This document shows, in pieces, positions 1 to 63,663 of a stretch of 64,000 nt of DNA. The stretch is taken from assembly GCA_032622095.1 (NCBI GenBank), contig CP136064.1, positions 178,328,247-178,392,246 on the forward strand, read 5' to 3'. Origin of the DNA: Siphonodentalium dalli. Taxonomy: Eukaryota; Mollusca; Scaphopoda; Gadilida; Siphonodentaliidae. The notes under the pieces are model-generated. The model ran no database searches, was not told the DNA's origin, and saw only the letters and a list, made by a program, of their open reading frames with translations. A program made the translations under genes and the position numbers. Position 1 is the first letter of the stretch, and each line of letters begins with the position of its first letter.

Positions 1-42
1 ACTCTTAAAAGTCTGATGCTCTACCGACTGAGCTAACCGGGC
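1..42 (-). tRNA. tRNA-Lys(UUU), 3' part outside window
   Basis: First 38 bases of the gene and the start of its intron are present. The window edge cuts the rest. Confidence 0.85.
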
Positions 43-305
43 TGGTTGCTAGTGGGGCCACCATTTGCTTTCTGCACAAAACGGGTGATATCTATTTGAG
101 AAGTTTGTGGCGCCAAATTTTAAGGCCAGAATATTATGCGCACAGCATATAAGTGGAATAATTTGGGGCTCGATTTTATTGTGTATTGCGCAAACACGCT
201 ATTTGATGTTTGTAAACTATCCAATTGGGAACCAGGTGGTCGGGTGTTATGATTTTGTGATGGAAACCGAGATGGTGCATCGTTTTCGAGTATAAAAACT
301 AACGT

Positions 306-400
306 CGCCCGATATGGGACTTGAACCCATGACCCTCAGATGACTCTGAATTTAGCAGACTCTTAAAAGTCTGATGCTCTACCGACTGAGCTAACCGGGC
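306..400 (-). tRNA. tRNA-Lys(UUU) with 22-nt intron (reference copy)
   Basis: Lysine tRNA reading AAA/AAG. The minus strand gives a complete cloverleaf: a seven-pair acceptor stem with one G-U pair, D stem GCTC/GAGC, anticodon stem TCAGA/TCTGA, loop CTTTTAA with anticodon TTT, T arm ATGGG-TTCAAGT-CCCAT and discriminator G (position 306). An intron of 22 nt (342-363) lies after base 37, the normal place in eukaryotes; its AAA can pair with the anticodon, and its third-last base, G, can pair with C32 as the splicing endonuclease requires. A box TAGCTCAGTCGG and B box GGTTCAAGTCC are consensus. TTTTT follows 8 bases after the gene (near 294-298). Length without the intron is 73 nt. The gene should be transcribed by pol III and spliced. 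Confidence 0.97.
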
Positions 401-663
401 TGGTTGCTAGTGGGGCCACCATTTGCTTTCTGCACAAAACGGGTGATATCTATTTGAGAAGTTTGTGGCGCCAAATTTTAAGGCCAGAATATTATGCGCA
501 CAGCATATAAGTGGAATAATTTGGGGCTCGATTTTATTGTGTATTGCGCAAACACGCTATTTGATGTTTGTAAACTATCCAATTGGGAACCAGGTGGTCG
601 GGTGTTATGATTTTGTGATGGAAACCGAGATGGTGCATCGTTTTCGAGTATAAAAACTAACGT

Positions 664-758
664 CGCCCGATATGGGACTTGAACCCATGACCCTCAGATG
701 ACTCTGAATTTAGCAGACTCTTAAAAGTCTGATGCTCTACCGACTGAGCTAACCGGGC
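664..758 (-). tRNA. tRNA-Lys(UUU), intron-containing
   Basis: Copy of the 306-400 gene. Confidence 0.95.
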
Positions 759-1021
759 TGGTTGCTAGTGGGGCCACCATTTGCTTTCTGCACAAAACGG
801 GTGATATCTATTTGAGAAGTTTGTGGCGCCAAATTTTAAGGCCAGAATATTATGCGCACAGCATATAAGTGGAATAATTTGGGGCTCGATTTTATTGTGT
901 ATTGCGCAAACACGCTATTTGATGTTTGTAAACTATCCAATTGGGAACCAGGTGGTCGGGTGTTATGATTTTGTGATGGAAACCGAGATGGTGCATCGTT
1001 TTCGAGTATAAAAACTAACGT

Positions 1022-1116
1022 CGCCCGATATGGGACTTGAACCCATGACCCTCAGATGACTCTGAATTTAGCAGACTCTTAAAAGTCTGATGCTCTACCG
1101 ACTGAGCTAACCGGGC
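1022..1116 (-). tRNA. tRNA-Lys(UUU), intron-containing
   Basis: Copy of the 306-400 gene. Confidence 0.95.
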
Positions 1117-1379
1117 TGGTTGCTAGTGGGGCCACCATTTGCTTTCTGCACAAAACGGGTGATATCTATTTGAGAAGTTTGTGGCGCCAAATTTTAAGGC
1201 CAGAATATTATGCGCACAGCATATAAGTGGAATAATTTGGGGCTCGATTTTATTGTGTATTGCGCAAACACGCTATTTGATGTTTGTAAACTATCCAATT
1301 GGGAACCAGGTGGTCGGGTGTTATGATTTTGTGATGGAAACCGAGATGGTGCATCGTTTTCGAGTATAAAAACTAACGT

Positions 1380-1474
1380 CGCCCGATATGGGACTTGAAC
1401 CCATGACCCTCAGATGACTCTGAATTTAGCAGACTCTTAAAAGTCTGACGCTCTACCGACTGAGCTAACCGGGC
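1380..1474 (-). tRNA. tRNA-Lys(UUU), intron-containing, base 26 variant
   Basis: Copy of the 306-400 gene with A to G at tRNA base 26 (window position 1449). A purine is kept, so it is probably harmless. Confidence 0.94.
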
Positions 1475-1737
1475 TGGTTGCTAGTGGGGCCACCATTTGC
1501 TTTCTGCACAAAACGGGTGATATCTATTTGAGAAGTTTGTGGCGCCAAATTTTAAGGCCAGAATATTATGCGCACAGCATATAAGTGGAATAATTTGGGG
1601 CTCGATTTTATTGTGTATTGCGCAAACACGCTATTTGATGTTTGTAAACTATCCAATTGGGAACCAGGTGGTCGGGTGTTATGATTTTGTGATGGAAACC
1701 GAGATGGTGCATCGTTTTCGAGTATAAAAACTAACGT

Positions 1738-1832
1738 CGCCCGATATGGGACTTGAACCCATGACCCTCAGATGACTCTGAATTTAGCAGACTCTTAAAA
1801 GTCTGATGCTCTACCGACTGAGCTAACCGGGC
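1738..1832 (-). tRNA. tRNA-Lys(UUU), intron-containing
   Basis: Copy of the 306-400 gene. Confidence 0.95.
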
Positions 1833-2095
1833 TGGTTGCTAGTGGGGCCACCATTTGCTTTCTGCACAAAACGGGTGATATCTATTTGAGAAGTTTGTGG
1901 CGCCAAATTTTAAGGCCAGAATATTATGCGCACAGCATATAAGTGGAATAATTTGGGGCTCGATTTTATTGTGTATTGCGCAAACACGCTATTTGATGTT
2001 TGTAAACTATCCAATTGGGAACCAGGTGGTCGGGTGTTATGATTTTGTGATGGAAACCGAGATGGTGCATCGTTTTCGAGTATAAAAACTAACGT

Positions 2096-2190
2096 CGCCC
2101 GATATGGGACTTGAACCCATGACCCTCAGATGACTCTGAATTTAGCAGACTCTTAAAAGTCTGATGCTCTACCGACTGAGCTAACCGGGC
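2096..2190 (-). tRNA. tRNA-Lys(UUU), intron-containing
   Basis: Copy of the 306-400 gene. Confidence 0.95.
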
Positions 2191-2453
2191 TGGTTGCTAG
2201 TGGGGCCACCATTTGCTTTCTGCACAAAACGGGTGATATCTATTTGAGAAGTTTGTGGCGCCAAATTTTAAGGCCAGAATATTATGCGCACAGCATATAA
2301 GTGGAATAATTTGGGGCTCGATTTTATTGTGTATTGCGCAAACACGCTATTTGATGTTTGTAAACTATCCAATTGGGAACCAGGTGGTCGGGTGTTATGA
2401 TTTTGTGATGGAAACCGAGATGGTGCATCGTTTTCGAGTATAAAAACTAACGT

Positions 2454-2548
2454 CGCCCGATATGGGACTTGAACCCATGACCCTCAGATGACTCTGAATT
2501 TAGCAGACTCTTAAAAGTCTGATGCTCTACCGACTGAGCTAACCGGGC
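2454..2548 (-). tRNA. tRNA-Lys(UUU), intron-containing
   Basis: Copy of the 306-400 gene. Confidence 0.95.
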
Positions 2549-2811
2549 TGGTTGCTAGTGGGGCCACCATTTGCTTTCTGCACAAAACGGGTGATATCTA
2601 TTTGAGAAGTTTGTGGCGCCAAATTTTAAGGCCAGAATATTATGCGCACAGCATATAAGTGGAATAATTTGGGGCTCGATTTTATTGTGTATTGCGCAAA
2701 CACGCTATTTGATGTTTGTAAACTATCCAATTGGGAACCAGGTGGTCGGGTGTTATGATTTTGTGATGGAAACCGAGATGGTGCATCGTTTTCGAGTATA
2801 AAAACTAACGT

Positions 2812-2906
2812 CGCCCGATATGGGACTTGAACCCATGACCCTCAGATGACTCTGAATTTAGCAGACTCTTAAAAGTCTGATGCTCTACCGACTGAGCTAA
2901 CCGGGC
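2812..2906 (-). tRNA. tRNA-Lys(UUU), intron-containing
   Basis: Copy of the 306-400 gene. Confidence 0.95.
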
Positions 2907-3169
2907 TGGTTGCTAGTGGGGCCACCATTTGCTTTCTGCACAAAACGGGTGATATCTATTTGAGAAGTTTGTGGCGCCAAATTTTAAGGCCAGAATATTA
3001 TGCGCACAGCATATAAGTGGAATAATTTGGGGCTCGATTTTATTGTGTATTGCGCAAACACGCTATTTAATGTTTGTAAACTATCCAATTGGGAACCAGG
3101 TGGTCGGGTGTTATGATTTTGTGATGGAAACCGAGATGGTGCATCGTTTTCGAGTATAAAAACTAACGT

Positions 3170-3264
3170 CGCCCGATATGGGACTTGAACCCATGACCCT
3201 CAGATGACTCTGAATTTAGCAGACTCTTAAAAGTCTGATGCTCTACCGACTGAGCTAACCGGGC
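3170..3264 (-). tRNA. tRNA-Lys(UUU), intron-containing
   Basis: Copy of the 306-400 gene. Confidence 0.95.
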
Positions 3265-3527
3265 TGGTTGCTAGTGGGGCCACCATTTGCTTTCTGCACA
3301 AAACGGGTGATATCTATTTGAGAAGTTTGTGGCGCCAAATTTTAAGGCCAGAATATTATGCGCACAGCATATAAGTGGAATAATTTGGGGCTCGATTTTA
3401 TTGTGTATTGCGCAAACACGCTATTTGATGTTTGTAAACTATCCAATTGGGAACCAGGTGGTCGGGTGTTATGATTTTGTGATGGAAACCGAGATGGTGC
3501 ATCGTTTTCGAGTATAAAAACTAACGT

Positions 3528-3602
3528 CGCCCGATATGGGACTTGAACCCATGACCCTCAGATGACTCTGAATTTAGCAGACTCTTAAAAGTCTGATGCT
3601 CT
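3528..3602 (-). pseudogene. tRNA-Lys gene cut by element A (3' part)
   Basis: Keeps tRNA base 21 onward, including the intron and B box. The first 20 bases, with most of the A box, are separated from it by the retrotransposon. Confidence 0.95.
3585..3602. repeat. Target-site duplication of element A, left copy
   Basis: TTAAAAGTCTGATGCTCT lies immediately before the poly(T). The same 18 bases recur at 11671-11688, immediately after the far end of the element. It corresponds to tRNA bases 21-37 plus one intron base. Confidence 0.92.
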
Positions 3603-6162
3603 TTTTTTTTTTTTTATCTTTTATTATAAAAACATTATTAAGCAATGTGCTACAGTAAAAACAAAACGACAACATTTGTATACACATGAGATTACAATGA
3701 AAACAATGATAGTTCTTATATGTTATGTTTCCTAATAGAAAGCTGAATAGAAGCCTATAGTATGAAATATATATCAGGTATATGCGATAGTTGTCGTTGG
3801 TTGTTGACTTTCCTTGTTAATTTTTAATTATTTCCTCGACTAATGTTAGTTCCATGGAATTTTTAGCAGTGTATCGAAATTATAATGTTTCGGTATGATG
3901 TAGGCGAAGTAACTCTAAAATTTGTCGAGTATTTGCATTTGGCAATCTCCGTGTATCTCCGTAAGCATACGAAGATTGACGAGGTTTACGGAATTATTCG
4001 GACCAGTTATTGCACGTGTTTTTGGCTAAACATTTTCTTTCTAAAATGGACTAATATCCATATAATTAGGTTATTGAAGTGTTGTCGATGTTGACTGTTA
4101 TCTCTATGAAATCTACGGTGAGTTTCCCAAAGTAAAATAACCATATTTCTGTAGGAAAAAGCACTTTTGTTTCGCCAAATTTTTGTGTTGATGTCTTCGG
4201 CATCTTCCGTGTTCAGCCGAGCCCGATGGGGCCAACATCGGTCATCCAATGTGAAACATGTCAAAATGTGAATATGAAAATTGGTACTGATGCTGTGATA
4301 GAATTTTTACTTCAAGAGTCTTAATTTGACATGATAGTTAAACATCTCACCAGTTTTTGTGATAAAATGAATATGATTTTATGAATATATTTGTTGTTTC
4401 GCCTTGCAATTGGGTGAATTTATAAATTATAAATAATGTTTAATAATAATAATATATTAATAATAAATTGGTTTGTTATTATACCATCAACATGACTTCC
4501 CGGTGCGCCACGGTTCATCGGCATCCCGACATGAATGACCAACAACCATAAGGCCCACCAGAGGCCCGAGACAACAGTCAAAGGCCTCTAATAGGCCCGA
4601 GGGCCGCCAAACACGCATGGAGGTCTGCCAAAAAATATATACACCATGGCGCCTGACAAAAAAACGCCGTTACTTTTATTACCATTCTGGCCTGGTATGA
4701 TCACGTGGTCTGTGACTTGACCAGAAAAGGGCGGCGGCCCCAGCGAAAACAAAAATTCACTAAATCTTGCCGCACACCTCTAGTCAATTTTATCTCAAAC
4801 TTGTAAATCTTATTGTGCAGGTAAATACTCTTAATCTACTTGAGAAAGCCCTCTAAAATGGTAATAATTATTCATAGCAACATACATGCACATGATTCTG
4901 TGTACATTTATATTTTTACGACTGATTTGTGTTAACATTGTTCCATTATGATAATCATGAAATCTGAATGGCATAGAATTGTGTCTGTTTTGCATACAGA
5001 TGGATACTTATTGTCTGTTTACTTGTTTTTTCCAGGTAAAACTTATTTGTATGCTGCATCTGACGACTCGGTGACAAGTTGGAAATTTCAGAAACTGGCA
5101 CTTGTGGGATTTGGCCTTGAATAGGTATTCTTCGGCATGTCGGTTTGACTATGCTCTGTTCTAGAAAAGGGCTGCAGACCAAAACTTATCAGTTATGATG
5201 TGTCTTATCCCATGATACAGTCTGTGAACAGTGGACCAGTTTTCTTGTATGGCTTAAAACTGGGATCTAAAGATCAATAACATATTTTTAGGTGAGAAAA
5301 AGTCATGTAAAGTATCCATACTCAATGTACTCACTATCGTATATATTACATTACATCCTCCGGGAAAATCTGTGGGTTCTGTGAGGTTTCGGCAGCTTTG
5401 TATAGTAAATGTGTTGTGGCGAGCGCCAACTTATCACTGTGTATCATGCATAATGCTACACTAGTGATTGCGTACTCCATCACAGAACCCAGAGACACCC
5501 CTAAGGACAAAATATAAATTATACATGTAATACTTAGGATAACTGACAAAGTACATATGACCTTTTAAATGTCTGTGAAAGGAAAAGTATACAAACATTT
5601 AACAACAACAACAAAAAAAAACCACCTAGATGTATGCATTGCAATAGAAATATATATATACTGGGTTTTAAATTGTAGTGAGGTCCTACCGGTATAGTTT
5701 TACTGGGTTATAAATTAAGGTGGAGTCCTATAGTTTACACAAGTGTTTCTTTGCAAAATTTTAATTGTTGAAAATTTGATTTAAAAAAAAACAAGAAAAC
5801 ATTCTTTTGTCTGGGACGTCGCGTGCCTTATCAGTACACATTGGCGATGTTGATGAGGGGGCAGTGTGTAACCTTTTAAAGTTGCTAGAACCAAAAATAT
5901 TAATATATATATTAGTTCTTTGAAAAAATAGTTCATATTACATTAAGCTAATGGAAACACCCTTCTGGTATAGGTTGTTCAGGTCTGCCGCTTTCAATAA
6001 AAAAATAAAAAAGGGGGGGGGGTCTTTTTCGAATAATTTCTGGAAGGCGTTTTTCTGTGAGGATGTTTATGGGAGGATATTCATGATATCCTTAGCATTC
6101 TCTACTGTATGCTTTTATACCGTATGTTACTTTCTTCAGAAATATTTTTATAATTTTATTTC
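3603..6162 (-). other. 3' UTR of element A
   Basis: No gene seen. The 3' terminus next to the poly(A) reads, on +, oligo-T then ATCTTTTATTATAAAAA, which recurs with one extra T in element B. It contains a GC-rich patch with repeated AGGCC (about 4550-4620) and a G run at 6013-6022. The short ORFs on either strand lack recognisable domains. Confidence 0.6.
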
Positions 6163-9100
6163 TTAACTCAAATCCAATTTTGGTTCTGATCCCTGATAAT
6201 AGAAAATAGGGTTTCCTTCTACAAAATATTTTATAAAAAGAGAATGGCTGCTATTGTTTTGTGTATAATTGAAATACATTTCTTTATGATTGATTAGCAT
6301 CTTGGTGAATAAAAAGTCAATATCAATTACTTTCCCCTCCATCAAGCAATAATTACGTCTTCGCCACACTGATAATCTATAGCAACTATATAATAAATTC
6401 AGAAAGTAATAGTTAGGCAATTTTGATTTTGTATTGTTGCCTAACAATAAATTGATTTGGAAATCTTTCTCTTTTACACAACCTGTTCCACTGTGCATTA
6501 TATCAATATATCTTCTGAACTTTGACTGAAAATTTTTCAGACAGGGACATGACAGAAATAAATGAATGATATCTTCCTGGTGACTCTTACAAATTGGACA
6601 AATATTGGTTTCACTAGCTCCAGTCAATGATTGTTTCTTCAATGTGTAAACTATATTCTGATGTACTTTGAAATCTAAATCTTTCATTTCCGAAGACTTT
6701 GGCTGAATATAAATAGATTTCCATGAAATCTCTCTCTGAATTTGATTGATTTGAAAGTACTTTTCCCAAAATGATTCACCTGTGGCCGGTTTAAAGAATT
6801 TTGATCTCATGATATCATAAGCTATCTTTGTTGATATATTTCGAATATCAAGTAAATCTCCTTTTGGATGCAGATATTTTAGAGGGACCGGTTCCCTTCC
6901 TTGACTGTTTTCAGCTACTGCTGAATGTGATATAATTTCTTTCCACTTATGTGGTATAGACTCTATGATAATCTCATATTGTTTTGTCACTTTACAGCTT
7001 TTGCATGATGACGAGCCACATACTAGATCATGAATGGAACTACTGGGCAAAAATCCAGGTACATATTCATATATAATGTCTTGAATCTTTGTAATGCCTT
7101 TCTCCACAAAATTTGTGAAACTAATGGGTTTTTGTTGAAAAGTTATTTGATTGTTATCAAAAAGACACATATATTGTATGTCGGCATCTTCATAGATGAA
7201 TTTGCCTTCTCTGCGAGACATCAAATTCCATGCATATAAAACTTCTCTATAAAATAGAGGCATGTGTTTGGTGTGCTTTTGATCAATATTTTGAAAATAT
7301 ATACCTTTACCCAGGCTGTATGATTTATACTCTCTGAAATAATATTCCATAAAAATGACCCATGGAAAATTACTGGTGTAACTTCTTTTGATCCACTTTA
7401 TTCTCATTGCATCTCGTTTTAGAATTAGGTCTGCTAAATTGAGACCTCCATCTGAAATTTTACCAATCACTGTGCTGTATTTGATAACGTTATAACTACT
7501 TCCCCATAAGAAATTTAAGCATAGAGATTTAATTTTATTGACATACAATTCTGGCATTGGTATAACATTTAAAGGATACCATAGTGTTGACAATAATAGA
7601 CTATTGATTACTAAACATTTTCCATGTAATGTTAAATTCCTTTCTTTCCAAAAATGTAAGGTGCAGGAAATTTTCTGGACTTTCTTTGACCAATTAAGTG
7701 TTTCACATTCTTTTTCATCATTTCCCAAATAAATACCCAATATTTCTATGCTTTTGTCTGTGCATTGGAGTGGTAAATTTTCTCTGGTCTCAATCTTGGA
7801 TGAACCAAGAGGAAGAATTTTAGATTTTGCTTTATTGATAATAGAACAGGAACCTTTTGAAAACATTTCAAAACATTTCATTACTTCTACTATAGAATTT
7901 TTGTCTGACACCGTGACCTTGTTATCATCTGCATGTTGAAATATTTTACATTCTTTATTAGTGAATGGTATTTTTATTCCCTTTATATTCAGGTTCTGAT
8001 TGATCATAGCTGCTAGGGGTTCAGAGCAAATGACATAAAGAAGAGGTGACAAAGGACATCCTTGTCTAACTGAAGATTCAACTGGGAAGTAGGAAGATGT
8101 GTGTCCATTAATTTTGATGCAGCTTTTACAATTTGAGTACATGAGTTTAATTCTGTTAATGAACCTTTCGCCAAAGTTGAAATTCTTCAAAACATCAAAC
8201 ATATACTGGTGTGAAATCTTATCAAAGGCTTTATACAAATCCAATTTCATGAGATAACCTGGATAGTTATGTGCTTCTGTGAAATCTACTATATCCCGAA
8301 TACTGGAAACTGTTTCGCTGAGATCGCGACCGGGGATGCTGCAAGTTTGGAAAGGAGAGATAATGTCTGGTAGAAACATTTTAACTCTATCGGCCAGAAC
8401 CTTCGCAAATAACTTTCGATCTACGCCTAGAAGTGAGATTGGCCTCCAATTTTCTAAGGATGTCTTGTCACCTTTCTTGTATAATAAAGTAATAAGACCA
8501 CGATCCATAGACCTTGGCATTATACCTTCCTGCTCTGCGGTATTGAATATGTATACAAGTGTGTGTCCTAATTGTTCCCAGAATTTCAATAGAAAATTTC
8601 TAGTTATACCATCGAGACCTGGCGATTTGGAGGGAGCCATTGATTTTAGAGCCTGATGCAATTCTTCGTGAGTAAGTGGCTGTTCAAGTGCTAAACACTG
8701 ATCCTCTGATAACTTATTCTGGATTGAATTGAGCAATGAATTTTCTGCTTCGGGTTCTATTGCGTTTTTCTGATATAATTTGGTGTAAAAATCTTCAGCC
8801 ACTTTAAGTATATCAAAAATACTCTTAACCTCATTTCCATGTGAATCATTTAATTGCCGTATAGAATTTTTTTCCTGCCTGTAGCGTTCTAATTGTAAGA
8901 AATATTTAGTACTTTTATCACTTTCCAAATGATGTTTTGATTTTGACCTGAGGATAGCTGCTTGGCATTTCTGTTCCTCAAATTTGGCCAAAGAATTCTT
9001 TAAATCTACTATTTTATATAAATTTTGGAATTGTTGAGGTCTAGATAACTCAATACATAATTGTTTTTGTAAGTTCCTCTCTTCTGCTTTTTCATTCTGA

Positions 9101-10044
9101 TTTTTACTTTTTGAATACTGTTGACTAAATTTTTTTATCTGGTATTTTAAATTATCCCACCATATCAATGGCTCTCTCTCAAATAGGGGACACTCTTCGG
9201 ACTTTGCTATGAGATTCTTGATGTCGTTAACAAAATCTTCATCACATAGCAAAGTGTCGTTCAATATCCATACGCCAGGGCCTCGGTCAATTTTTTCAAC
9301 ATTTATTTTTGCAACTAGAATAGCATGGTCGCTGAATGAGCTGTACTGTATGTATGAGTATTGGGTAAATTGTTTGATATTTTTGGAGCATAATATATAA
9401 TCAATTCTACTTTGCTGCAAGAGACCAAGTTTTAACTTATGCCACGTGTATTGTCTTTTATCATAGTTTTTGTACCGCCATATGTCTGTTAGGTCTTGTT
9501 TTGCAACAAAAATTTTAAAATCTTTTGATGAAATATCTTCTAGACCTGTTTGTCTATCAATACCTTCTAATACTGTGTTAAAATCTCCCATGATGATACT
9601 TTGTTCCATATCTTTCACATACTCGCGCAAATCTGTTAAGAAAACTTTTCTCTGTCTATGCTTGTTGGGCAAATATACATTTATTAGATCAAGAATCTGG
9701 TCTTCTATCTGTATATTTAAATGAATTAGTCTCCCTTCTGAATCAATTTGAACATTTTTGACACAATGCTTGAATTGTTTTGAGATTAAAAAGGCAACTC
9801 CATTAGACTGATTACTAAAATGACTACACTTTATTGTTCCATTCCACATGTGTTTGACTTGTTTAACAAAATCCTCATCCCAATGGGTCTCTTGCAGCGC
9901 AATAAAGTCATACCGTTTCAAATCACATAATTCAAAAACATTTTTAACCTTTTTAAAGCTACGTAGGCCATTCACATTGAAGGTAGCAAACAATACCATT
10001 ATAATGGTTAAAAAGTTATATGTTATTGTTACAACAAAAGCCAT
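6163..10044 (-). CDS. ORF2 of Tx1-like element A: endonuclease-reverse transcriptase
   Basis: A 1293-residue polyprotein that nicks target DNA and copies the element's RNA into the nick. The APE endonuclease fills about residues 20-245: N in TFNVNG, E in LQETH (about 52), GDFN (about 153), RIDYIL (about 213), SDH (about 238). The reverse transcriptase spans about 450-780, with NWRPISLL, LDLYKAFD (catalytic Asp about 602), RQGCPLSPLLY and FQHADD (about 704). A C-terminal CCHC knuckle, C-x2-C-x8-H-x4-C, lies at about 1149-1166. The start chosen is the ATG at 10044, because the open frame upstream of it offers only TTG. That ATG is two bases after the ORF1 stop (TAACAATGG), which suggests coupled reinitiation. 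HADD replaces the usual YADD. The frame is fully open. Confidence 0.93.
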   Translation of the reverse strand: MAFVVTITYNFLTIIMVLFATFNVNGLRSFKKVKNVFELCDLKRYDFIALQETHWDEDFVKQVKHMWNGTIKCSHFSNQSNGVAFLISKQFKHCVKNVQIDSEGRLIHLNIQIEDQILDLINVYLPNKHRQRKVFLTDLREYVKDMEQSIIMGDFNTVLEGIDRQTGLEDISSKDFKIFVAKQDLTDIWRYKNYDKRQYTWHKLKLGLLQQSRIDYILCSKNIKQFTQYSYIQYSSFSDHAILVAKINVEKIDRGPGVWILNDTLLCDEDFVNDIKNLIAKSEECPLFEREPLIWWDNLKYQIKKFSQQYSKSKNQNEKAEERNLQKQLCIELSRPQQFQNLYKIVDLKNSLAKFEEQKCQAAILRSKSKHHLESDKSTKYFLQLERYRQEKNSIRQLNDSHGNEVKSIFDILKVAEDFYTKLYQKNAIEPEAENSLLNSIQNKLSEDQCLALEQPLTHEELHQALKSMAPSKSPGLDGITRNFLLKFWEQLGHTLVYIFNTAEQEGIMPRSMDRGLITLLYKKGDKTSLENWRPISLLGVDRKLFAKVLADRVKMFLPDIISPFQTCSIPGRDLSETVSSIRDIVDFTEAHNYPGYLMKLDLYKAFDKISHQYMFDVLKNFNFGERFINRIKLMYSNCKSCIKINGHTSSYFPVESSVRQGCPLSPLLYVICSEPLAAMINQNLNIKGIKIPFTNKECKIFQHADDNKVTVSDKNSIVEVMKCFEMFSKGSCSIINKAKSKILPLGSSKIETRENLPLQCTDKSIEILGIYLGNDEKECETLNWSKKVQKISCTLHFWKERNLTLHGKCLVINSLLLSTLWYPLNVIPMPELYVNKIKSLCLNFLWGSSYNVIKYSTVIGKISDGGLNLADLILKRDAMRIKWIKRSYTSNFPWVIFMEYYFREYKSYSLGKGIYFQNIDQKHTKHMPLFYREVLYAWNLMSRREGKFIYEDADIQYMCLFDNNQITFQQKPISFTNFVEKGITKIQDIIYEYVPGFLPSSSIHDLVCGSSSCKSCKVTKQYEIIIESIPHKWKEIISHSAVAENSQGREPVPLKYLHPKGDLLDIRNISTKIAYDIMRSKFFKPATGESFWEKYFQINQIQREISWKSIYIQPKSSEMKDLDFKVHQNIVYTLKKQSLTGASETNICPICKSHQEDIIHLFLSCPCLKNFQSKFRRYIDIMHSGTGCVKEKDFQINLLLGNNTKSKLPNYYFLNLLYSCYRLSVWRRRNYCLMEGKVIDIDFLFTKMLINHKEMYFNYTQNNSSHSLFIKYFVEGNPIFYYQGSEPKLDLS

Positions 10045-10046
10045 TG

Positions 10047-11462
10047 TTAACAAGATTGGTTTTGGGTATTAGATGAATTCACTCCCTGATGTTTCATCCG
10101 TTCATCGTGCGCCTTCTTAGCTGCCTCCACATTAGGCGCTGGGTGAAATCGCTTATGTTTTTTGTACTTCTGTGATTTCCCGATATTTGATGATTGAGTT
10201 TGCCACCCCTCGTCATCAAAACCGTTACTTTCCTTCGTGTCATTAAATTCATCAGTTTCATCAATTCTGGTACCGACTCCTGACATTAGATCTTCATTCT
10301 CTGTTACATTAGTTTTTACACTTTCTGTCATCTCACCTTTCTTCTCTTCTGATATTTTTACCTCCTTCTTTGCATTTCCTTCTATGTCTTGACTCTCCTT
10401 TTCTATGTTTTCCTCGGTTTGTTCTCCTATGATCTCCATAGACTCCATTCCTTCTTTGCATTCACATTCACCTGACAACCCACAGCTGAAACATAAAACT
10501 GGTGGCTCAGACTGATCATTGCCAGGTGTGTCCTCCTTTATTTGAACATTTTCGAACTGTTTTTCCTCTGCAATTTTAACAGTGTCTTCTTGCGGTACTT
10601 CACTGTGATTTTCCTTATCATTTTCCTTCGCACTTTTCTTTTCTTCTTCATACTTGCGAATTAACTTTTTCTCGAGCTCTGATTTTCTTCTTAATTCTTC
10701 TATGTCTGTTTCTATTTCATCTTCTTCTCCACATGTGCAGTCTGATGTCATTTCTTTGCATCCAGGGCAACAAACTCTGTCTATTTTCCTATGTCCACTC
10801 CTTGAACAGTTATAACACACAAGATTTGGGCAAGATTTATATTCGTGTTGGTCCGAGTAACACAAACTGCAGACTTTCCTCTGACCGTTGTGAATTAAGC
10901 GATATGACTTGGATCCATCGACTGTATTGAAGCGAACCAAATTTGGTAATGACCTAATTTCCGGAGGAAATGTGACTTTTGCGTACCTCGTTCCATCTGC
11001 AATATTTGTATTTCTGTAATACCGTCTCCTTAAATCTTCAATTTCGGTGATTCCAAAAGATTTAAGTTTCTCTTTTATTTCATCATCTGTGATGTATGCT
11101 GGTAAATGCATAAAAGAAACAGTCATTCTGTTGTCAGAAATCAACTTTGGCCTGAATTGGGGCCTTGTAACTGCTAACTTTTCAACTAATAGTTCTGCAT
11201 GCTCTCTTTTTTCCATTGTTAACTCGTAACTGTTATTTCCAACCGGTACGCAAGCAACCACTGAGTCGAAGCCCACCATTTTTTCCACATTTTCAATAGT
11301 TTTAGCTGCAGATACTGTTCTGATATCCCCCACTGTTAGCCTCAGTGTTGACTCCTTCTGAAAATGTGAACGTTCACATTTAAATTCTTCATTTTTAAGG
11401 GCATTAGCATATGATGACTGTCCCTGTCCCTGGTCCACATCTCCCATTTTCGAAGTAGCCAT
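10047..11462 (-). CDS. ORF1 of element A: RRM-like zinc-knuckle RNA-binding protein
   Basis: A 471-residue protein, first ATG at 11462. Two compact domains come first: about 40-95 (LRLTVGDIRTV...VVACVPVG) and about 113-190 (MTVSFMHLPAYITDDEI... to the knuckles), the second like the RRM-type fold of Tx1/L1-group ORF1 proteins. Two zinc knuckles follow: C-x2-C-x4-H-x4-C at about 198-211 and C-x2-C-x4-H-x6-C at about 216-231, then further Cys pairs. The C-terminal half is acidic and low in complexity. Its role is presumably to coat the element's RNA and chaperone nucleic acid. It overlaps nothing and ends two bases before ORF2. Confidence 0.88.
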   Translation of the reverse strand: MATSKMGDVDQGQGQSSYANALKNEEFKCERSHFQKESTLRLTVGDIRTVSAAKTIENVEKMVGFDSVVACVPVGNNSYELTMEKREHAELLVEKLAVTRPQFRPKLISDNRMTVSFMHLPAYITDDEIKEKLKSFGITEIEDLRRRYYRNTNIADGTRYAKVTFPPEIRSLPNLVRFNTVDGSKSYRLIHNGQRKVCSLCYSDQHEYKSCPNLVCYNCSRSGHRKIDRVCCPGCKEMTSDCTCGEEDEIETDIEELRRKSELEKKLIRKYEEEKKSAKENDKENHSEVPQEDTVKIAEEKQFENVQIKEDTPGNDQSEPPVLCFSCGLSGECECKEGMESMEIIGEQTEENIEKESQDIEGNAKKEVKISEEKKGEMTESVKTNVTENEDLMSGVGTRIDETDEFNDTKESNGFDDEGWQTQSSNIGKSQKYKKHKRFHPAPNVEAAKKAHDERMKHQGVNSSNTQNQSC

Positions 11463-11670
11463 CTCCCCCACCAAAAGAAATAAAGAAACAACTCACTATT
11501 GGTGAGTATTTACCTCTGTATTTCTGATCACATGTTTGCCTTTAAAGTCTAAATGATTTTCTTTATAAATCAGTTGTGAAATGTCGAGTTATTGCCGATA
11601 ATTCTTCAAAATATCTTCGTCGAAAATCGGGTTTGTTTATCCCGCCATTGACAACCGGAAGTGTCTCCTG

Positions 11671-11847
11671 TTAAAAGTCTGATGCTCTACCATTTGGGAA
11701 CCAGGTGGTCGGGTGTTATGATTTTGTGATGGAAACCGAGATGGTGCATCGTTTTCGAGTATAAAAACTAACGTCGCCCGATATGGGACTTGAACCCATG
11801 ACCCTCAGATGACTCTGAATTTAGCAGACTCTTAAAAGTCTGATGCT
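11671..11847. repeat. Rearranged array remnant between element A and the CR1 element
   Basis: Starts with the 18-bp duplication plus ACC, jumps at about 11691-11697 to the spacer part GGGAACCAGG, and then runs normally into a tRNA gene (11775-11847) cut by the CR1 element. About 150 bp of the unit, including the first 20 tRNA bases, is missing. Confidence 0.9.
11775..11847 (-). pseudogene. tRNA-Lys gene cut by CR1 element (3' part)
   Basis: Intact from the D stem to the 3' end. The 5' part lies beyond the CR1 insertion, near 15820-15841. Confidence 0.93.
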
Positions 11848-11909
11848 GAATCTGAATGGTTTCCGCTGCAGATCCCAATTCTGGTAATTTCGCAGCGGTC
11901 GAGAGAGTC

Positions 11910-23699: not shown

Positions 23700-25667
23700 T
23701 TTTTTTATCTTTTATTTATAAAAATCATAATGTAATATGACATATACAAAATATTATAACATTGCACAAACATATAAAAATAATGATAATAATAACAGTA
23801 TTCACTACAATAAATGGAATTTGTCATCACTTGTTGTTATATAACATGTGTTCTTACAATACAAAATTGTATGCTGTATTTATGTAGCGAACTCTATTCT
23901 TATTCCTAAAAGGAAGTTGAACTGGATTTTTAGCATTATAAACTGGATCTCCTGTTATTCAATTGGTAAATAGCTGATATGATTCAAATTTATTTGTGAT
24001 AATATTCAACTCGATTGTACTATGACGTACAGTTTTGTCGGCAAATTGTCGTACAGTAATCGATAGCGTGGAAGTGATGATAGAGTTACTTCCCTTCCGT
24101 TGCACATGGAATTTTGAAAAAGAAAAGTTTTTTCTGCTGGAGATTATTGTAAAATTCCAAATAACCATGGGTCTATATGCTCTTTAATCTAATTCGAAAG
24201 GTATGTAAGAGTGTTGTCTCGGCGAGGATAGGGTTCCATAGTGTTCAGGGCGGTTATGAAAGGCGTCAACGTTTGAGCAAAATGTACGTGTCCATTTTTC
24301 GTGTAATCCCAGTTCAGCCACAGGTTTTGGTAGTTTTATAAAAAAAAAAAGGACTATATGTAAGAATAAAGTCCAGGTATATAAGTAATTATGTAGCAGA
24401 AATCACGAAATTTTAAAACATGTTTTTTATTTACCCACACTTCCGAAATGTCTGTACTATACACGCTTATATATACTTAATGACATCAAGATATATAATA
24501 CTACCTTCTTTTGCCACAATTCGTACCTTGAAATGTTTATTTTGAAGTAATAAATTTGTTAAAATATTACGTCTGTTTCAGGTAGCACCATTACTTTAGT
24601 TGTACTCGATTACAGAACTAGCTACTCCCGGTTGTGTTCGATTGCCGAGCCCGTGATGTTCCAGCTGCCCAGACTAAGCCGGCACTCTTTGTCAATAGCA
24701 AGAACTTGAAATGTTATATTGTCTATTAAAAGTTTTAAAAATATTTTGATGTAAAAAATGATAAAAATAAAGTTGCCATATTTATGTGGGTTTTATGTTG
24801 TATATATATCAATTCTCCTTTCTATATTTCTTTGTTACCAATAGTGTTTAATTGAATGGGTCACGGTGCGACTAAATATAGAAGTTACAAGGAAAACCAG
24901 TTCTATTTATATTCACTAGGCTTGATACATGAATGGAGTTTGAGCACATTTGAATGATTTTGAGTGATAGAATACCCCGTGCGTTAATTTCCCCTTGACC
25001 CGATTCCACGTTGCATGGTCGAATCACGAATGTCGATAAAAGTTGAAACATAAGACTTACAAATTATCTGTTTAGTTTTTTTCATTTGTGATTGGCATAA
25101 CTTACCACAAACCAAAATTCATCATTATTGGAATTATATTAACGACAATAAACGAAATTGAAACTCCCAACTACACATTTTACTGGACTCGACCTCGGAC
25201 TCGGACTACAACTATTAGTGTGTCCCAATTGAACCGGAACTAAGTTCTGGTGTCACGCGGGTGCTCAACCGACAGAAACATTCCCGTAAACGGTTGCAAA
25301 AAACCTTTGTTTCTTTCTAATAGTTGGAAGAATCTATAGTAAGACGAACACTGTAAGTAAAGCTAGTGTTAATTATATGTGTATGAACGCGCGACGGTTA
25401 ATTAACGTCGATAGGGTAAATAGTATTACAACGAAAGAAATTCCAATTTCCTCACTGGATATTTAATCTACTTCCGGTTTTCTAGTTAGACACCTGGTCA
25501 TTTATTTACTAGAATGGTCATCTCATTCTCATGAAAAAGGTCTATAAAACTACCAAAACCTGTGGTTCAGCGTGACAACAATCGTGACCTCATATCTATA
25601 TTGAGATTGAAAATTACCAATCTAACGTTATCCATCAAATATATTAACTGGTTCCCCCAGTTGTATG

Positions 25668-25985
25668 TTCAGCTATCATCAGCCATTGACTCGGCACCCT
25701 AGATCATGCCACGAATCCCCACTCTGGCTACTGCATAGTGGAGATTCGTGGCATGATCCATCGGCACCCCAGGCCTCTGTCAGTGTCAAATCTGATTACG
25801 ACAATGGCGACTCCAGTAGTATTTTCAGCAATCATCAGCCATTGACTAGGCACTCTAGATCATGCCATGAACCTCCACTCTGGCTAACGCCCGTGTATAG
25901 TAGAGATTCATGGCATGATCCATCGGCACCCCAGACCTCTGTCAGTGTAAATTCTGTTTACGACAATGGTGATTCCTCCTCTTAA
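25668..25985. repeat. Two-copy tandem repeat (period 156-162 bp), each with a long hairpin
   Basis: Copy 1 starts at 25668 and copy 2 at 25824. Each has an inverted repeat: arms 25702-25722 and 25738-25758 (20 of 21 pair, 15-nt loop), and arms 25858-25873 and 25905-25920 (15 of 16 pair, longer loop). Copy 1 has GCCACGAA facing TTCGTGGC and copy 2 has GCCATGAA facing TTCATGGC, a compensated change. A 106-codon frame on + (25665-25985) spans both copies, but nothing else supports it as a gene. Confidence 0.85.
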
Positions 25986-26984
25986 AATTCTGTTCTGAAA
26001 ATAATCGTTTCGTGTAAATGTGCAATTTATAATTTAATAATACAGTTATGTACACATAATTTTTCAACATTATTGTGGGCACATGATGATGCCGCACATC
26101 CGAGCAGCTTCACCATAATATTTATTTCTTTTTTTCCTTTAAAATGATCATTCACTAATTTGTTATGCCTTAATATGAGAAGCGTAGCATATCGCTTAAC
26201 ATTAAATGTTGTTCCTGAATAACTTTCTTCCCGTGGCAAATTTTCGACTCGTAAATAAACCATTTATTGATTCTGAACTCCTTGTGACCTACTTGCGATT
26301 ACCAGTTTGTCACGTGATCTTCGAAATTAATCTAATTTGAAATATACATATTCTTTCAGATACCCATTGGAAGTTAACAGAAATTGGTACGGTTATGGCT
26401 CCCTGCTAACATGGGTGCAGATAATCGGATGAGAATAAGGTAATTATTACTAGTTAGAAGCATGTCTAGTAAATTATAAGATATTTCAGCTATGAAACAA
26501 ACTCTAATAGAGCACTACTAGTACTGGTGGCCACATGAAATCAGTCAAAATGACAGGCTATATTTTCTGAATGGTTACTTAATTAATCACAAAGGGTGAC
26601 TGTTAGTGTTTCCTGTAGCATGGCATACGCTCCACAATAAACATCAACCCTTTATAATAAGGCCAGGAGTGGTATGAATAATGGGGTGGGTGATGTGGTT
26701 CGGGGGGGGTGTAATTGGGATGCATTGAAATATAAAAACAATTTAAAAAACTGGAAAGTTTGGTCATGATAATCCTTTTACACTCTTTCTCTTTGATAGC
26801 TCGCTAGCATTGTAATAACATTTCTGCCGGGATGTTTACGAGACCGGGCGAGGGGGGGGGGTGCCAAAAATTAGAATTTTTCCTTTATATATATATAATT
26901 TTTCTCATTTTAGTTCTTTTCTACTTTGTAAATTATTCGTGATCCACTTTTTTTTGTTTTTTGGAGGATTTGGGTGGAGTATAC

Positions 26985-27029
26985 AAAAAAAAAAAAAAAA
27001 AAAAAAAAAAAATTAAAATTTTTTTCAAT

Positions 27030-27064
<35 letters not shown>
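26985..27064. repeat. Facing poly(A) and poly(T) runs
   Basis: About 28 A (26985-27012), a short AT-rich centre, then about 30 T (27035-27064). The T run is in the orientation of a poly(A) tail for a minus-strand retrotransposon. Confidence 0.9.
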
Positions 27065-27070
<6 letters not shown>

Positions 27071-27446
27071 TAAACTTTTGACTTTTATTGATTGCTGCTT
27101 AATGCCATCTCAGTTATTACATTGTTGATATGAATTTTTAACCAATTTTCTTATTTATATGTTTTGTTATTCTATTTCAGCACAGATATGCATGGGCATC
27201 TCTACCAGAATCCAGAACTGAAAAAAGAATGGATACTGCTGGATGAAGTTGTTTTGTATGACAGATCTTGCTAATTACATTTGACATTGGTTGCTCAACA
27301 TTAAAAGGAAACAGCTTCATATACATTGGATTGCCGTTGGAAAATCATATGCATGTCAGGTCATGCATGCAAGCTAATTCTTTCTACGGTTTCTTAACTT
27401 TAAAGGAGGATATCTTTATATGGATCAGAAGTTGTGTCTTCTGTTT

Positions 27447-30400
27447 TCAAATTGAAAAGTGGATCTGTTCGGCGATATAATATATTAGTGTGTTATTATT
27501 CAGGATAAATTTATCGAATAATTCAGACTTGTTTTTCCTATCGTAATAAATCCTCAGCATTGTTATGTGATTTTTCAAAACTGGCTGTAGTAATTTATTT
27601 GCTGGTAATCTTTTGTTATCATACAAGTAGAAATTCCTTGACCGATATACAGCTATTCTGTATGCACTCAATAACAGGTTGATAAACATAATATTTATAT
27701 TTTTTCCTTTTCTACCTGAGCCGAAGATCAACATTTTGCTAAATTCATCTTCGGTGACAATTTTGTCTTTTGCAAAGAGGTGATCTATATATAGTCTACA
27801 TTTATCTTTAATCTCCTGTAAATATTTACATCCAAAAAATATATGCTTTATATCCTCAACGTCAATGTGACATAAAGGACATGTATCAGTGTCTGATTGC
27901 TTGACTATAAATTGTCTGCGCCGAGTAAATAACATGTTATGATATATTTTCAGATCCAGTTCAATCATCTCTGTTGACTTTACACATAAATGGACTAAAG
28001 TCCAATTCAATTTGAAATCGGGACCATATTGCTTCTGCCAATAGGACACACTTGTTGGCATTTCAAATACCTTTGCTATTATTTGTAAATATGCAATCTT
28101 AGTGGTAAGATGAGAAGTAGATGTTAGTTCTCCATTGTTAACGAATGGAATGGCATTTTCCCCACAGGTTTTTCCATTTATATCACTGTAGGAATTTGCC
28201 ATTTCATTTCCATTAACAAGTTCTTTCCATTCACAAGGCAGTGCATTCAAAATAGACGTGTAGTTATTCGATACAGTTACACAGTTACACATTGAATCAC
28301 CGCATACCATTTCATGTATGGCCATTTCTGGCAAAAATCCAGGAATGACCTCATATGTCAGGTGTTTAATTCTTACTAGCCCAGCCATAACAAAGGAGTC
28401 AAAATAGAACATTTTCCCCTCTGATGTTATTAGCCCATTGTCAAATAAGGGTTGGTCTAGTACATTTAACGTGGAATTAATGAGATGACGCGAATCGTCA
28501 GTTATGATTTTCCAAGCTCTTAAGACATCAGCATAGAACTGAGGTAATTTGACTGCATACCTCTCATATATATTAATGAAGAGTGTGTCTTTTCCTAATC
28601 TTAAGTTACGGTACTTATCAAAATAGAAAAGCATAAAATATTTCCAAGGGAATTGACTGACTTCCATTTTTTTTATCCATTTGCATCTCAAGGCTAATTT
28701 TTTCTTTTCAACATCGGGTAGCTTTAATCCGCCCACATTAAGGTCACCAATCAAGGTTGTGTACTTAATTTTATGGATCGTATTATCCCAAAGAAAGCTC
28801 AACACTATTGCTTTTAGCTTCTTCTCGTACATTTCTGGCAATTCTGTTACATTTAAAGTGTACCACAATGTTGAAAGATAAAGTGATTGAAGAACAGTAA
28901 TTTTACCTTTAATAGTTAACTTTCTTTGCTTCCATAAATGCAAAATATTAGAAATTTTCTGTAACTTTTTGGACCAATTTACATCAATTGCTTCTTTCTC
29001 ATTATTGCCGAGATAAATTCCTAAGATTTCAACTGGACCTTGAACAATTTGTAAAGGCAAATCTCTGGGCAAAATTACATTGCCAATAGGCATTATCTCT
29101 GATTTATCATAATTAATTTGACTTCCTGATCCTTTTGCAAATGTTTCGAAACATTGTAAAACTAATTTGACTGAATTCTCATCAGCAACGACTAATTTGT
29201 TATCATCAGCATGTTGGAAGAGCTTTGCTGGCATATTACATCCTGGAATGGGAATACCCCGTATGTTATGATTATTATTTATCAATTGTGCAATAGGTTC
29301 TGAACACAGTATATACAAGAGTGGTGACAAAGGGCATCCCTGTCTAACTGAAGATTCAATTTTGATCCATGAAGATAAATGACCATTCATTTTTATACTG
29401 CTTTTCGAATTTTGATACAAAATTTTAACCCAACGGACAAAATTTTCACCAAAGCCTACTTCCTCTAGAACTTTGAAAAGGTAACCGTGGTCAATTTTGT
29501 CGAAAGCTTTATACAAATCTATCTTCAAAAGGACTGCATCCAGATTGCTGTCGTTAATATACCGAATCATGTCTTTTAGACTTAGAACGGTTTCACTCAA
29601 GTCTCTACCTGGTACTGAGCAAGTTTGAAAATCGGATACTAATGTTGCAATAATCGTCTTCATCCTATTGGCTAGAATTTTGGCAATTAATTTTCTATCA
29701 ACACCTAATAAGGAAATTGGTCTCCAGTTAGAGAGGTCTCTCTTGTCACCTTTTTTCTTATAAATCAAAGTGATAAGGCCTTTTTCCATTGAAGGAGATA
29801 GTCTGCCATTACAACTAATTTCTGTGATCAGCTTTACAAACAGCGGTTCAAAAATGGTATAAAACCTCTTTAAAAATGTTGCTGTTAATCCATCTAAACC
29901 TGGGGATTTCCCATCTGACATTGAAAATAAGGCCTCATAAATTTCACTACTTTCAAAATCAGTGTCAATTATATCTGAATTTTCTTTGTTCAGTTTTTTC
30001 TCAATCACTTCAAGTAAAATATTTTGTTTTTCCTCTATGATAATTGGTGTTGAATATAGATTTCCATAGAAGTGTTCGGCTATTTTCAACATATCAAATG
30101 GATTGGTGACAATTGAACCATTCCTATCTACAACTGCTGGAAATGTGTTGAAATCTTGTCTGTATTTTTCCAAAGACAAAAAATATTTTGTACAACGGTC
30201 ATCTTCAAATGCATGATTACACTTACTTCTTATGATAGCTCCCTGGCATTTGAGTATTTCATGTTCTTCGATATCGGATTTTAGAAGGGAAATTTTGGAA
30301 ATGTCTGTAAATTGAGAGGGTCTGCTTAATTCAATCGAAAGTTTTCTTTGTAGCTCATATTCATTTGACTTGCGCTCTCTAGATAATTTTTGAGCATAAA

Positions 30401-31316
30401 AGATAGAGGCTTTCTTTATTTTATACTTTAGATTGTCCCACCATACCAGATATTCCCTGTCAAATAATGGACAACTTTTTTCTTTGTTGACTAGCTCATT
30501 TATTAACAACACATAGTTGGGATTGTCTAAAAGTGAGTCATTCAGGATCCAAACGCCTGGACCTTTCTCTACCCCATGGAAATTAAACTTGGCAATTACC
30601 AGGGAGTGATCACTAAAGGAAGTGTAGTTCATGAAACAATACATATTCAAGCTAATCAATGAGTTTGTACATAAAATATAATCAATTCTGCTTTGTTGTA
30701 ATTTATTTTCAACAATTCTGAGCCAGCTGTATTGTTTTTTCCCGGGGTTTCGATACCTCCAAGAATCTAGTAAATGATTTTTAGTTAAAAAATTTTGAAA
30801 GTCCACTGTTGTTCCATCAGTGTTGCCACTGTATCTGTCAATACTCTGGTACACTGTGTTGAAATCACCCATGATAATCTTTTCTGAACTAATTTTACAG
30901 ATGTTTTCTAGGGATTTGAGGAAAAGTTTCCGGTCTTTATAATCATTCGGGGCATATACTGAAAAAAAGGAATATTTTTTGTCATTGAACATTAAGTTAA
31001 TGCCAACTAGTCGTCCATGGTCATCTTTAATTTTTAATTCACATGTTTTACCAAATTCTTTGCTGACCAAAATAGCTACACCTCTGCTGTTATCTTTATA
31101 GTTGGAGCTGAAACATTTACCCTTCCACAAGTGCTTAATGCTATCAACATAATCATCATCCCAAAAAGTCTCCTGTAAAGCAATCACGCCAAATCTGCGC
31201 TCCTCAAATAAGCTGAACAACCCTTTAATCTTATTCACATTTCTCATACCTCTCACATTCAAGGAGCACAGAGTTGCCATGAATGCAACCAGAAAAACTT
31301 TCTGCAAAAATTCCAT
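27447..31316 (-). CDS. ORF2 of Tx1-like element B: endonuclease-reverse transcriptase
   Basis: 1289 residues from an ATG at 31316, collinear with ORF2 of element A but clearly diverged. The APE endonuclease has SLNVRG, LQETFW (Glu about 49), IIMGDFNTV, SRIDYIL and SFSDHS. The reverse transcriptase has NWRPISLLGVDRKL, LKIDLYKAFD, RQGCPLSPLLY and FQHADD. The C-terminal CCHC is CPLCHIDVEDIKHIFFGC, the same spacing as in A. The start is 9 bp after the ORF1 stop. The whole frame is open although its ORF1 is broken. Shared HADD and a shared target site argue that A and B are one site-specific lineage. Confidence 0.92.
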   Translation of the reverse strand: MEFLQKVFLVAFMATLCSLNVRGMRNVNKIKGLFSLFEERRFGVIALQETFWDDDYVDSIKHLWKGKCFSSNYKDNSRGVAILVSKEFGKTCELKIKDDHGRLVGINLMFNDKKYSFFSVYAPNDYKDRKLFLKSLENICKISSEKIIMGDFNTVYQSIDRYSGNTDGTTVDFQNFLTKNHLLDSWRYRNPGKKQYSWLRIVENKLQQSRIDYILCTNSLISLNMYCFMNYTSFSDHSLVIAKFNFHGVEKGPGVWILNDSLLDNPNYVLLINELVNKEKSCPLFDREYLVWWDNLKYKIKKASIFYAQKLSRERKSNEYELQRKLSIELSRPSQFTDISKISLLKSDIEEHEILKCQGAIIRSKCNHAFEDDRCTKYFLSLEKYRQDFNTFPAVVDRNGSIVTNPFDMLKIAEHFYGNLYSTPIIIEEKQNILLEVIEKKLNKENSDIIDTDFESSEIYEALFSMSDGKSPGLDGLTATFLKRFYTIFEPLFVKLITEISCNGRLSPSMEKGLITLIYKKKGDKRDLSNWRPISLLGVDRKLIAKILANRMKTIIATLVSDFQTCSVPGRDLSETVLSLKDMIRYINDSNLDAVLLKIDLYKAFDKIDHGYLFKVLEEVGFGENFVRWVKILYQNSKSSIKMNGHLSSWIKIESSVRQGCPLSPLLYILCSEPIAQLINNNHNIRGIPIPGCNMPAKLFQHADDNKLVVADENSVKLVLQCFETFAKGSGSQINYDKSEIMPIGNVILPRDLPLQIVQGPVEILGIYLGNNEKEAIDVNWSKKLQKISNILHLWKQRKLTIKGKITVLQSLYLSTLWYTLNVTELPEMYEKKLKAIVLSFLWDNTIHKIKYTTLIGDLNVGGLKLPDVEKKKLALRCKWIKKMEVSQFPWKYFMLFYFDKYRNLRLGKDTLFINIYERYAVKLPQFYADVLRAWKIITDDSRHLINSTLNVLDQPLFDNGLITSEGKMFYFDSFVMAGLVRIKHLTYEVIPGFLPEMAIHEMVCGDSMCNCVTVSNNYTSILNALPCEWKELVNGNEMANSYSDINGKTCGENAIPFVNNGELTSTSHLTTKIAYLQIIAKVFEMPTSVSYWQKQYGPDFKLNWTLVHLCVKSTEMIELDLKIYHNMLFTRRRQFIVKQSDTDTCPLCHIDVEDIKHIFFGCKYLQEIKDKCRLYIDHLFAKDKIVTEDEFSKMLIFGSGRKGKNINIMFINLLLSAYRIAVYRSRNFYLYDNKRLPANKLLQPVLKNHITMLRIYYDRKNKSELFDKFILNNNTLIYYIAEQIHFSI

Positions 31317-31325
31317 TATTAAAAA

Positions 31326-32916: not shown

Positions 32917-33456
32917 TTTCGTTTCAATTTCGTCTGCTCCACATTTTTGTAAATGCGTTTTTTTGGAAGGTATTTTTGGCTGAGCGTGTCGGCCCAACCT
33001 CTACCTGCAACATGTTCGCAGCCCAAATATCACCAGGTCAAACACCAAAAATCTCCTATAATTCTTAGGCCTCTTCATTTACACAGAGATAGTCAGTTAC
33101 CTTACTGTATGTATACCGAGCAGAAGATTTCAATGACTCGCGTTAATTTATTCCGAGGTTTACGAACACCATATTGTCATATCTAATTGCACTGAAGTTT
33201 AAATGTTATCTATTATTGTGGAATGTAATATCATTAAAAATTAATTCTATCACATTTAATACTCTATTTTCTTTCTGCTCGGTCTTTAGCGCAACCCGTG
33301 ACTTGTGGTTCCATGTGACGGTGCATGATGCGACCCTTTGGTAATAGCGGCATGATGCTTGAAACTAAACTCTCACGAAATGTCTCTAATAAATACAGAC
33401 AATTAAGATATCGCTATGAACCATCACACCATATTATAGTCGAGAATGTCTCCTGT

Positions 33457-63632: not shown

Positions 63633-63663
<31 letters not shown>

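Follow-up and report, generated by a model that had tools for sequence, protein, structure and literature searches.

Long interspersed nuclear elements at one inner nucleotide of many tRNA genes in the scaphopod Siphonodentalium dalli

Joints and duplications within tRNA genes

The window analysed here, a stretch of 64,000 nucleotides (nt) from the scaphopod mollusc Siphonodentalium dalli (contig C4, C4:178328247-178392246, in a 2.23-Gb assembly of 9 contigs), carries a tandem array of tRNA genes that is interrupted by three families of long interspersed nuclear elements (LINEs), here called A, B and C. We propose, with a probability of roughly four in five, that these families belong to a LINE group specialised on tRNA genes as a class, and not on tRNA-Lys. 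In nearly all joints read, the 3' poly(A) of an element is joined just ahead of tRNA nt 21, where the A box has its 3' edge; the element lies in sense with the tRNA, and the isoacceptor makes no difference.

The array consists of 358-bp tandem units with one tRNA gene per unit, and the window holds 73 tRNA genes, all on the minus strand. The anticodon call of ARAGORN for the array gene is a misread; with the anticodon assigned by eye from the sequence, we read it as tRNA-Lys(UUU), interrupted by an intron of about 22 nt. The sequence GATGCTCT followed by a T run is located at 3595, 23692, 52331 and 63060, which confirms the four tRNA-Lys joints of the original prediction. When one mismatch is permitted, six matches are obtained; shuffled sequences yield 0.69 on average, and 0/100 shuffles reach six. 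The joints belong to A (3603), B (23700) and, twice, C (52339 and 63068), and each places the poly(A) at unit position 75, i.e. between tRNA nt 20 and 21. Genome-wide, the exact tRNA-Lys joint followed by 9 or more T occurs at only three places, all inside the window; this apparent rarity is explained once the 3' ends of the elements are used as genome queries.

These queries returned 38 A-like rows from 37 candidates, all 12 candidates for B, and 40 scored C-like matches out of 165. The A-like set takes in relatives matching at 72-74% as well as some that match the last 60 bases only. Two rows were left out, namely L060 (which belongs to the L052 copy as its second piece) and C1:51950610/L151 (query 1-44 only, no 3' end). 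Flanks were thus read for 88 joints (36 A-like, 12 B and 40 C-like) and compared against 85 intact tRNA genes of the same genome. In 85 of the 88 the flank matches a tRNA gene in sense orientation, and 86 joints lie in tRNA sequence. The match to the tRNA begins at nt 21 in 77/88 joints (A-like 34/36, B 10/12, C-like 33/40). Because these nt-21 joints span 23 isoacceptors of 11 amino acids (Arg, Asn, Glu, Gly, Ile, Leu, Lys, Ser, Thr, Tyr and Val), we regard tRNA genes in general as the target. Both intron-bearing and intronless genes are included, and there are at least 38 family-isoacceptor pairs when each is counted once (A-like 20, B 7, C-like 11). An Asp joint at nt 20 is compatible with the nt 21 site, given a run of A; L054 is typed as Ser(AGA) at 82% identity, and another Ser isoacceptor is possible.

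Searches with the second open reading frame (ORF2) of A lead to the same places. Of 26,339 candidates, 36 matches were scored; measured against 40 places with a tRNA joint, every one of them is no more than 70 kb away from such a joint, and 31 are no more than 12.1 kb away. Relatives at about 57-67% and 44-48% identity fall near tRNA joints as well. Among four further ORF2 relatives, L159 sits at a tRNA-Glu with the joint poly(A)-T-GATTCC, near nt 21; the other three have no readable 3' joint (in L156 and L157, N runs separate the ORF from the array, and L158 ends at another repeat).

At the 5' side, 11 joints were read for A (window and L134-L143). The A copy of the window is flanked by an 18-bp target-site duplication (TSD) of tRNA-Lys sequence, TTAAAAGTCTGATGCTCT in both copies, as had been predicted; the left copy (3585..3602) corresponds to tRNA nt 21-38 in antisense, and the right copy lies at 11671..11688. 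Clear duplications of 13, 14 and 15 bp accompany A copies in Glu (L137), Leu (L138) and Glu (L143), respectively, and L140 (Leu) has one of 14 bp if the first cut is placed at nt 21. L139, in tRNA-His, duplicates the 15 bp of nt 10-24, with the first cut at nt 9/10; hence, the spacing of the cuts is preserved when the site shifts. For C and C-like copies, 15 (window and L160-L173) and 6 (L174-L179) 5' joints were read, with clear duplications of 14 bp (L162/L163, Leu), 14 bp (L174, Arg) and 15 bp (L177, Asn) and shorter ones in L170 (8 bp or less) and L179 (about 8-9 bp); apart from the C copies of the window, which lack tRNA nt 16-20, the remaining 5' joints are chimeric or ambiguous. Clear TSDs are mostly 13-18 bp long.

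Choice of the insertion site

By the general biology of LINEs, the apurinic/apyrimidinic endonuclease (APE) of ORF2 would nick the antisense strand opposite the junction of nt 20 and 21, and the freed 3' end would prime reverse transcription of the poly(A) RNA of the element. A second nick further downstream would yield the duplication, and the length of the clear duplications places this second cut in the anticodon loop. The protein may be led to the site by RNA polymerase III (Pol III) factors bound to the A box, i.e. TFIIIC or a complex with TFIIIC, so that the promoter complex and the endonuclease would together set the position of the cut. We lean towards such tethering, by analogy with TRE5-A and since the local DNA motif occurs far too often to account for the selectivity. 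As the target is a large tandem gene family, insertion would also do less harm to the host.

Between the joint and the B box there are anywhere from 31 to 68 nt, yet the joint keeps its place at nt 21, which indicates that the site is fixed by the D arm and A box; the value for Leu(CAA) was left unused, since the motif falls within its intron. The joint tracks A21 although the spacing from G18-G19 to A21 varies from 1 to 3 bases.

What competes best with tethering is direct recognition of DNA, in which the endonuclease and other DNA-binding parts of ORF2 would read the A-box sequence without Pol III factors. Such reading has been proposed for other target-specific LINEs, and it would suit both a hairpin of the A endonuclease that is longer than that of L1 and matches the LTX chimera (see below) and a joint fixed at one nucleotide, unlike the distance-placed TRE elements (PMC5911963, PMC3706591). 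However, the target contexts share little besides GG and A21. A strict motif from the A box to A21 fits 17 of the 25 target contexts as cut out; once whole tRNAs are masked, 56 kb of window sequence contain seven matches to it, three of which are tRNA remnants, and the other four translate into roughly 1.6e5 sites per genome. A purely sequence-reading enzyme should therefore land mostly elsewhere, yet 86/88 joints are in tRNA sequence. We consider direct recognition possible, but rather unlikely.

Passive accumulation, i.e. insertion anywhere with survival only in redundant tRNA arrays, would agree with the occurrence of copies in tRNA clusters, where the loss of a single gene is cheap. Selection, however, cannot pin the joint to nt 21 when the spacer of the unit should be equally harmless. 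Other insert types of the window do occupy this spacer, and the dispersed control LINE D (see below) demonstrates that dispersed LINEs survive in this genome; we therefore hold passive accumulation to be highly improbable. An element specific to tRNA-Lys that rarely targets other tRNAs, as the four joints of the window would suggest, is refuted by the genome-wide counts (Lys(UUU) 4/85 and Lys(CUU) 1/85 tRNA joints, the remainder in other isotypes) and retains next to no probability.

With it falls the original assignment of the target to an intron-bearing tRNA-Lys gene, since the families occupy the corresponding nucleotide in 23 isoacceptors, with introns or without. The expectation that most copies would lie at tRNA-Lys 20/21 is borne out in its position and not in its tRNA (5/85). 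The description as an L1/Tx1-type LINE with poly(A)-primed joining, always in the orientation of the tRNA, is supported, with 85/88 joints matching a tRNA gene in sense; and instead of many copies at unrelated sites, the outcome which had been named as contrary evidence, just 2/88 joints are without a tRNA.

Several observations weigh against a uniform rule of insertion. Two Asn joints lie at nt 24 (possibly nt 21 with a deletion of GC), one His joint at nt 10, and four near-identical Tyr joints, probably one event copied, at nt 16. L092 keeps only nt 21-26 of tRNA-Glu, followed by a deletion, and two C-like copies with 77-78% identity to the query (L105 and L106) have no tRNA at the joint. 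The placement itself is ambiguous between 20/21 and 21/22 (22/23 where nt 22 is A), because tRNA nt 21 is itself an A. Copies are partly non-independent, many being array duplicates, and the C-like count covers the 40 scored of the 165 candidates. Among the 5' joints of A, L136 shows a duplication of 2-3 bp; L142 has half of a Met gene (to nt 35) on its 5' side and Val on its 3' side; the 5' side of L141 reaches the T arm, which is followed by a T run; and in L134 and L135 no tRNA adjoins the 5' end. Finally, the contact with Pol III factors is inferred by us, and ORF2 might read the DNA itself.

Chimeric 5' ends are a further feature of these families. In L169/L171 (C at tRNA-Glu), the 5' end holds 48 nt of a tRNA-Leu(CAA) locus, i.e. 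a 21-nt leader and nt 1-27; in L168 (C at tRNA-Arg), nt 1-27 of tRNA-Leu(CAA) are preceded by a 9-nt leader, and L165-L167 (C at Leu-CAA) hold a piece of tRNA-Thr(CGU). The 5' ends of L134 (A), L164/L185 and L168/L155 (C) and L178 (C-like) also contain the 3' end (TTTTTT) of a unit of about 420 nt. This unit has a tRNA-like head and the end TTTTTT (L155:51-478; also L181, L182, L183, L184 and L185); the head scores 23.3 bits against the Rfam tRNA model, under the cut-off of 29. A genome search with its last 197 nt gave 36 matches, 27 of them long, of which 16 were read; 15 of these 16 precede a LINE-type 5' start, in several families, and as many as four copies stand in tandem (L181). In L180 (C5:203437500-203438900), the unit is fused ahead of the 5' part of a sequence resembling U2 small nuclear RNA (Rfam U2 57.0 bits, cut-off 46).

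Some of these 5' ends perhaps reflect jumps of the reverse transcriptase (RT) onto Pol III-type RNAs as templates, which would account for the U2 chimera and also for the additional bases and the T run at these ends. Alternatively, the chimeras could stem from read-through out of a donor tRNA locus, or from swappable 5' promoter units, which are known from mouse L1. Genome searches did not find the source gene of the 420-nt unit. Places at C3:51M share its last 45 nt but, judged by the one that was read, are not the source; this one consists of zinc-finger-like repeats and has no Rfam match. Taken as a whole, we give an even chance to a LINE group blind to the isoacceptor, in which ORF2 would dock on the Pol III promoter complex and nick within the gene where the A box ends on its 3' side, and the RT would jump onto local Pol III transcripts (pre-tRNA and the tRNA-headed 420-nt RNA), so that copies carry these at their 5' ends.

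Relation to known site-specific elements

The Dictyostelium TRE5/TRE3 elements and NLTR-A/B are L1-clade LINEs which choose tRNA genes of all kinds; ORF1 of TRE5 contacts TFIIIB, mutation of the B box abolishes targeting, and the insertions of these elements spread over 2-54 bp upstream or 40-150 bp downstream of the tRNA gene (PMC5911963). They resemble the present elements in being APE-type and in using tRNA genes of any kind, but they insert outside the gene, whereas the insertions described here lie inside it, at one nucleotide (nt 21 in 77/88). Precise sites are found in the Tx1 clade, to which Keno, Mutsu and Dewa belong. Keno targets U2, Mutsu 5S, and Dewa the spacer of tRNA-Leu (PMC4640811, PMC3706591). 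All three are likewise APE-type, with a precise site in a multicopy small-RNA locus; each, however, uses one gene or spacer, and the present families use many tRNA species and neither U2 nor 5S.

LINEs inside tRNA genes are represented by NeSL-1_TV in tRNA-Pro, LIN15_SM in tRNA-Arg and LIN25_SM in tRNA-Glu (PMC4640811). In contrast to our APE-type elements, which keep to no single isotype, these are treated among the NeSL-related LINEs with a restriction-like endonuclease, with one tRNA each. A convergent target region, the A box, is used by the Dada DNA transposons, which insert inside tRNA genes, several of them at nt 8-13 (PMC8869645, PMC3706591); Dada elements differ as DDE transposons with short TSDs, with families named by the main tRNA target and with another nucleotide as insertion site. 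A limited search of the open-access literature, with subscription journals and Repbase outside its scope, revealed no LINE at one inner nucleotide of many tRNA isotypes, and a prior record in these sources is possible. Hence, a site-specific LINE is known as a kind, and the target rule is new as far as we could see in the literature searched.

Known tRNA-seeking retrotransposons either insert beside the gene via Pol III factors or are described for one tRNA sequence; here both traits are joined. Base-level precision in tRNA genes of at least 11 amino acids raises the question of whether a protein complex, and not the DNA sequence, can be the source of precision. Such an enzyme for RNA-templated insertion, with redundant target sites in the hundreds, is also a possible tool.

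The elements and their surroundings

All features of A, B and C lie on the minus strand. Element A, a full-length LINE (3603..11670), has its poly(A) as T13 at 3603-3615 and its canonical 5' start ACTTCCGG at 11662, with 8 additional nt up to 11670. Immediately past the right TSD the array unit is deleted, passing from unit position 78 to 274. ORF2 (6163..10053, 1296 aa) encodes an APE endonuclease, an RT and a zf-RVT domain, the latter under the Pfam cut-off. ORF1 (10047..11474, 475 aa) gave no match in a Pfam search and contains, by eye, a Cys/His-rich zinc-knuckle-like stretch. The 3' untranslated region of about 2.5 kb (3616..6162) contains no ORF longer than 85 aa. The sense strand of A has 75 runs of four or more T, the first at nt 44, and we therefore reject the idea that complete elements are transcribed by Pol III from the tRNA promoter of the host.

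Element B (23700..33825, poly(A) joint at 23699/23700) contains an ORF2 of 1289 aa (27447..31316), also with APE endonuclease and RT, and an ORF1 region (31326..32997) that is split into overlapping frames, with the CCHC knuckle CFKCREYGHVSRRC in the frame 31838-32500. Its 350 bp at the 5' side are absent from other B copies and have only two other good matches, both within this array, so that 33825 is a provisional 5' boundary.

The ORF2 proteins of A and B share 44% amino acid identity, and both match Pfam RVT_1 (A 9.4e-32, B 5.5e-32) and Exo_endo_phos (2.1e-17 and 2.6e-17). Endonuclease and RT are therefore combined in one ORF2, as in APE-type LINEs, and the 3' poly(A) with a TSD is that of target-primed reverse transcription, a clean TSD missing in some copies. 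Among the PDB structures compared, the best match of A ORF2 is L1 ORF2p (4.7e-79, residues 21-881), and R2 proteins match at 7.2e-21 or weaker; judged by sequence, A ORF2 is L1-type, with L1 ORF2p nearest among solved structures. The A endonuclease alone scores 74.5 and 74.9 bits with 2v0r 'LTX', the L1 endonuclease carrying the Tx1L hairpin, as against 62.0 and 61.3 bits with the native L1 endonuclease, and the gain is located in the hairpin preceding the conserved S-(K/R)-I-D, which would be compatible with membership in the Tx1 clade. Predicted structures were too poor for use (mean pLDDT, a model confidence score, of 50.8 for the A endonuclease domain and 35.3 for the C ORF). Fifteen near-full-length ORF2 copies are free of stops, which suggests recent activity of these LINEs.

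Element C (52339..54318), about 2 kb long with its canonical 5' start at 54312, has a single ORF of 353 aa (53098..54159) with the CCHC knuckle CVRCLSPNHKISSC and no match in a Pfam search. Across copies this ORF measures 353-365 aa, and it is open in 3/5 copies read. As C has no RT, it probably uses that of A- or B-like elements. The second copy (63068..64000) extends past the end of the window. Both copies are without a duplication and have lost tRNA nt 16-20; because they are 97.8% identical over the part within the window, beside array blocks that are 99.3% alike, they may represent a single event copied with the array. In sense, nt 1-1222 of C (52339-53560) contain no run of four or more T before the end of the ORF, and the following 759 nt contain 20. 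The fraction of synonymous shuffles without such a run in that stretch is 0.0165; the test was post hoc and we draw no claim from it, and two other C copies carry such a run at nt 484.

D is a CR1-like LINE (11848-15817) located 2 bp from the joint. Its family is dispersed, with 453 candidates across chromosomes, and a tRNA was present at the joint in 0/20 sampled copies handled like those of A, B and C. We therefore reject D as a second tRNA specialist and take its position to be chance. The start region of its ORF contains GDIEKNPGP, a 2A-like motif.

The target array of tRNA-Lys(UUU) units, on the minus strand, begins with a block at 1..3602 and continues at 15818-23699, 33826-38976, 41776-46251, 48914-49211, 52068-52338, 54319-58774 and 61440-63067. 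Three other kinds of insert are located in the array spacer, away from the joint. One of about 2.8 kb (38977-41775) is DNA-transposon-like, with terminal inverted repeats. A second kind is present at 46252-48913 and 58775-61439, with 99.6% identity, the same spacer position and internal repeats of about 137 to 298 bp. The third, of about 2.9 kb (49212-52067), is present in one of two otherwise alike array blocks. A nearby stretch of tRNA-Lys array (C4:178096834-178110851) has a period of 357 bp rather than 358.

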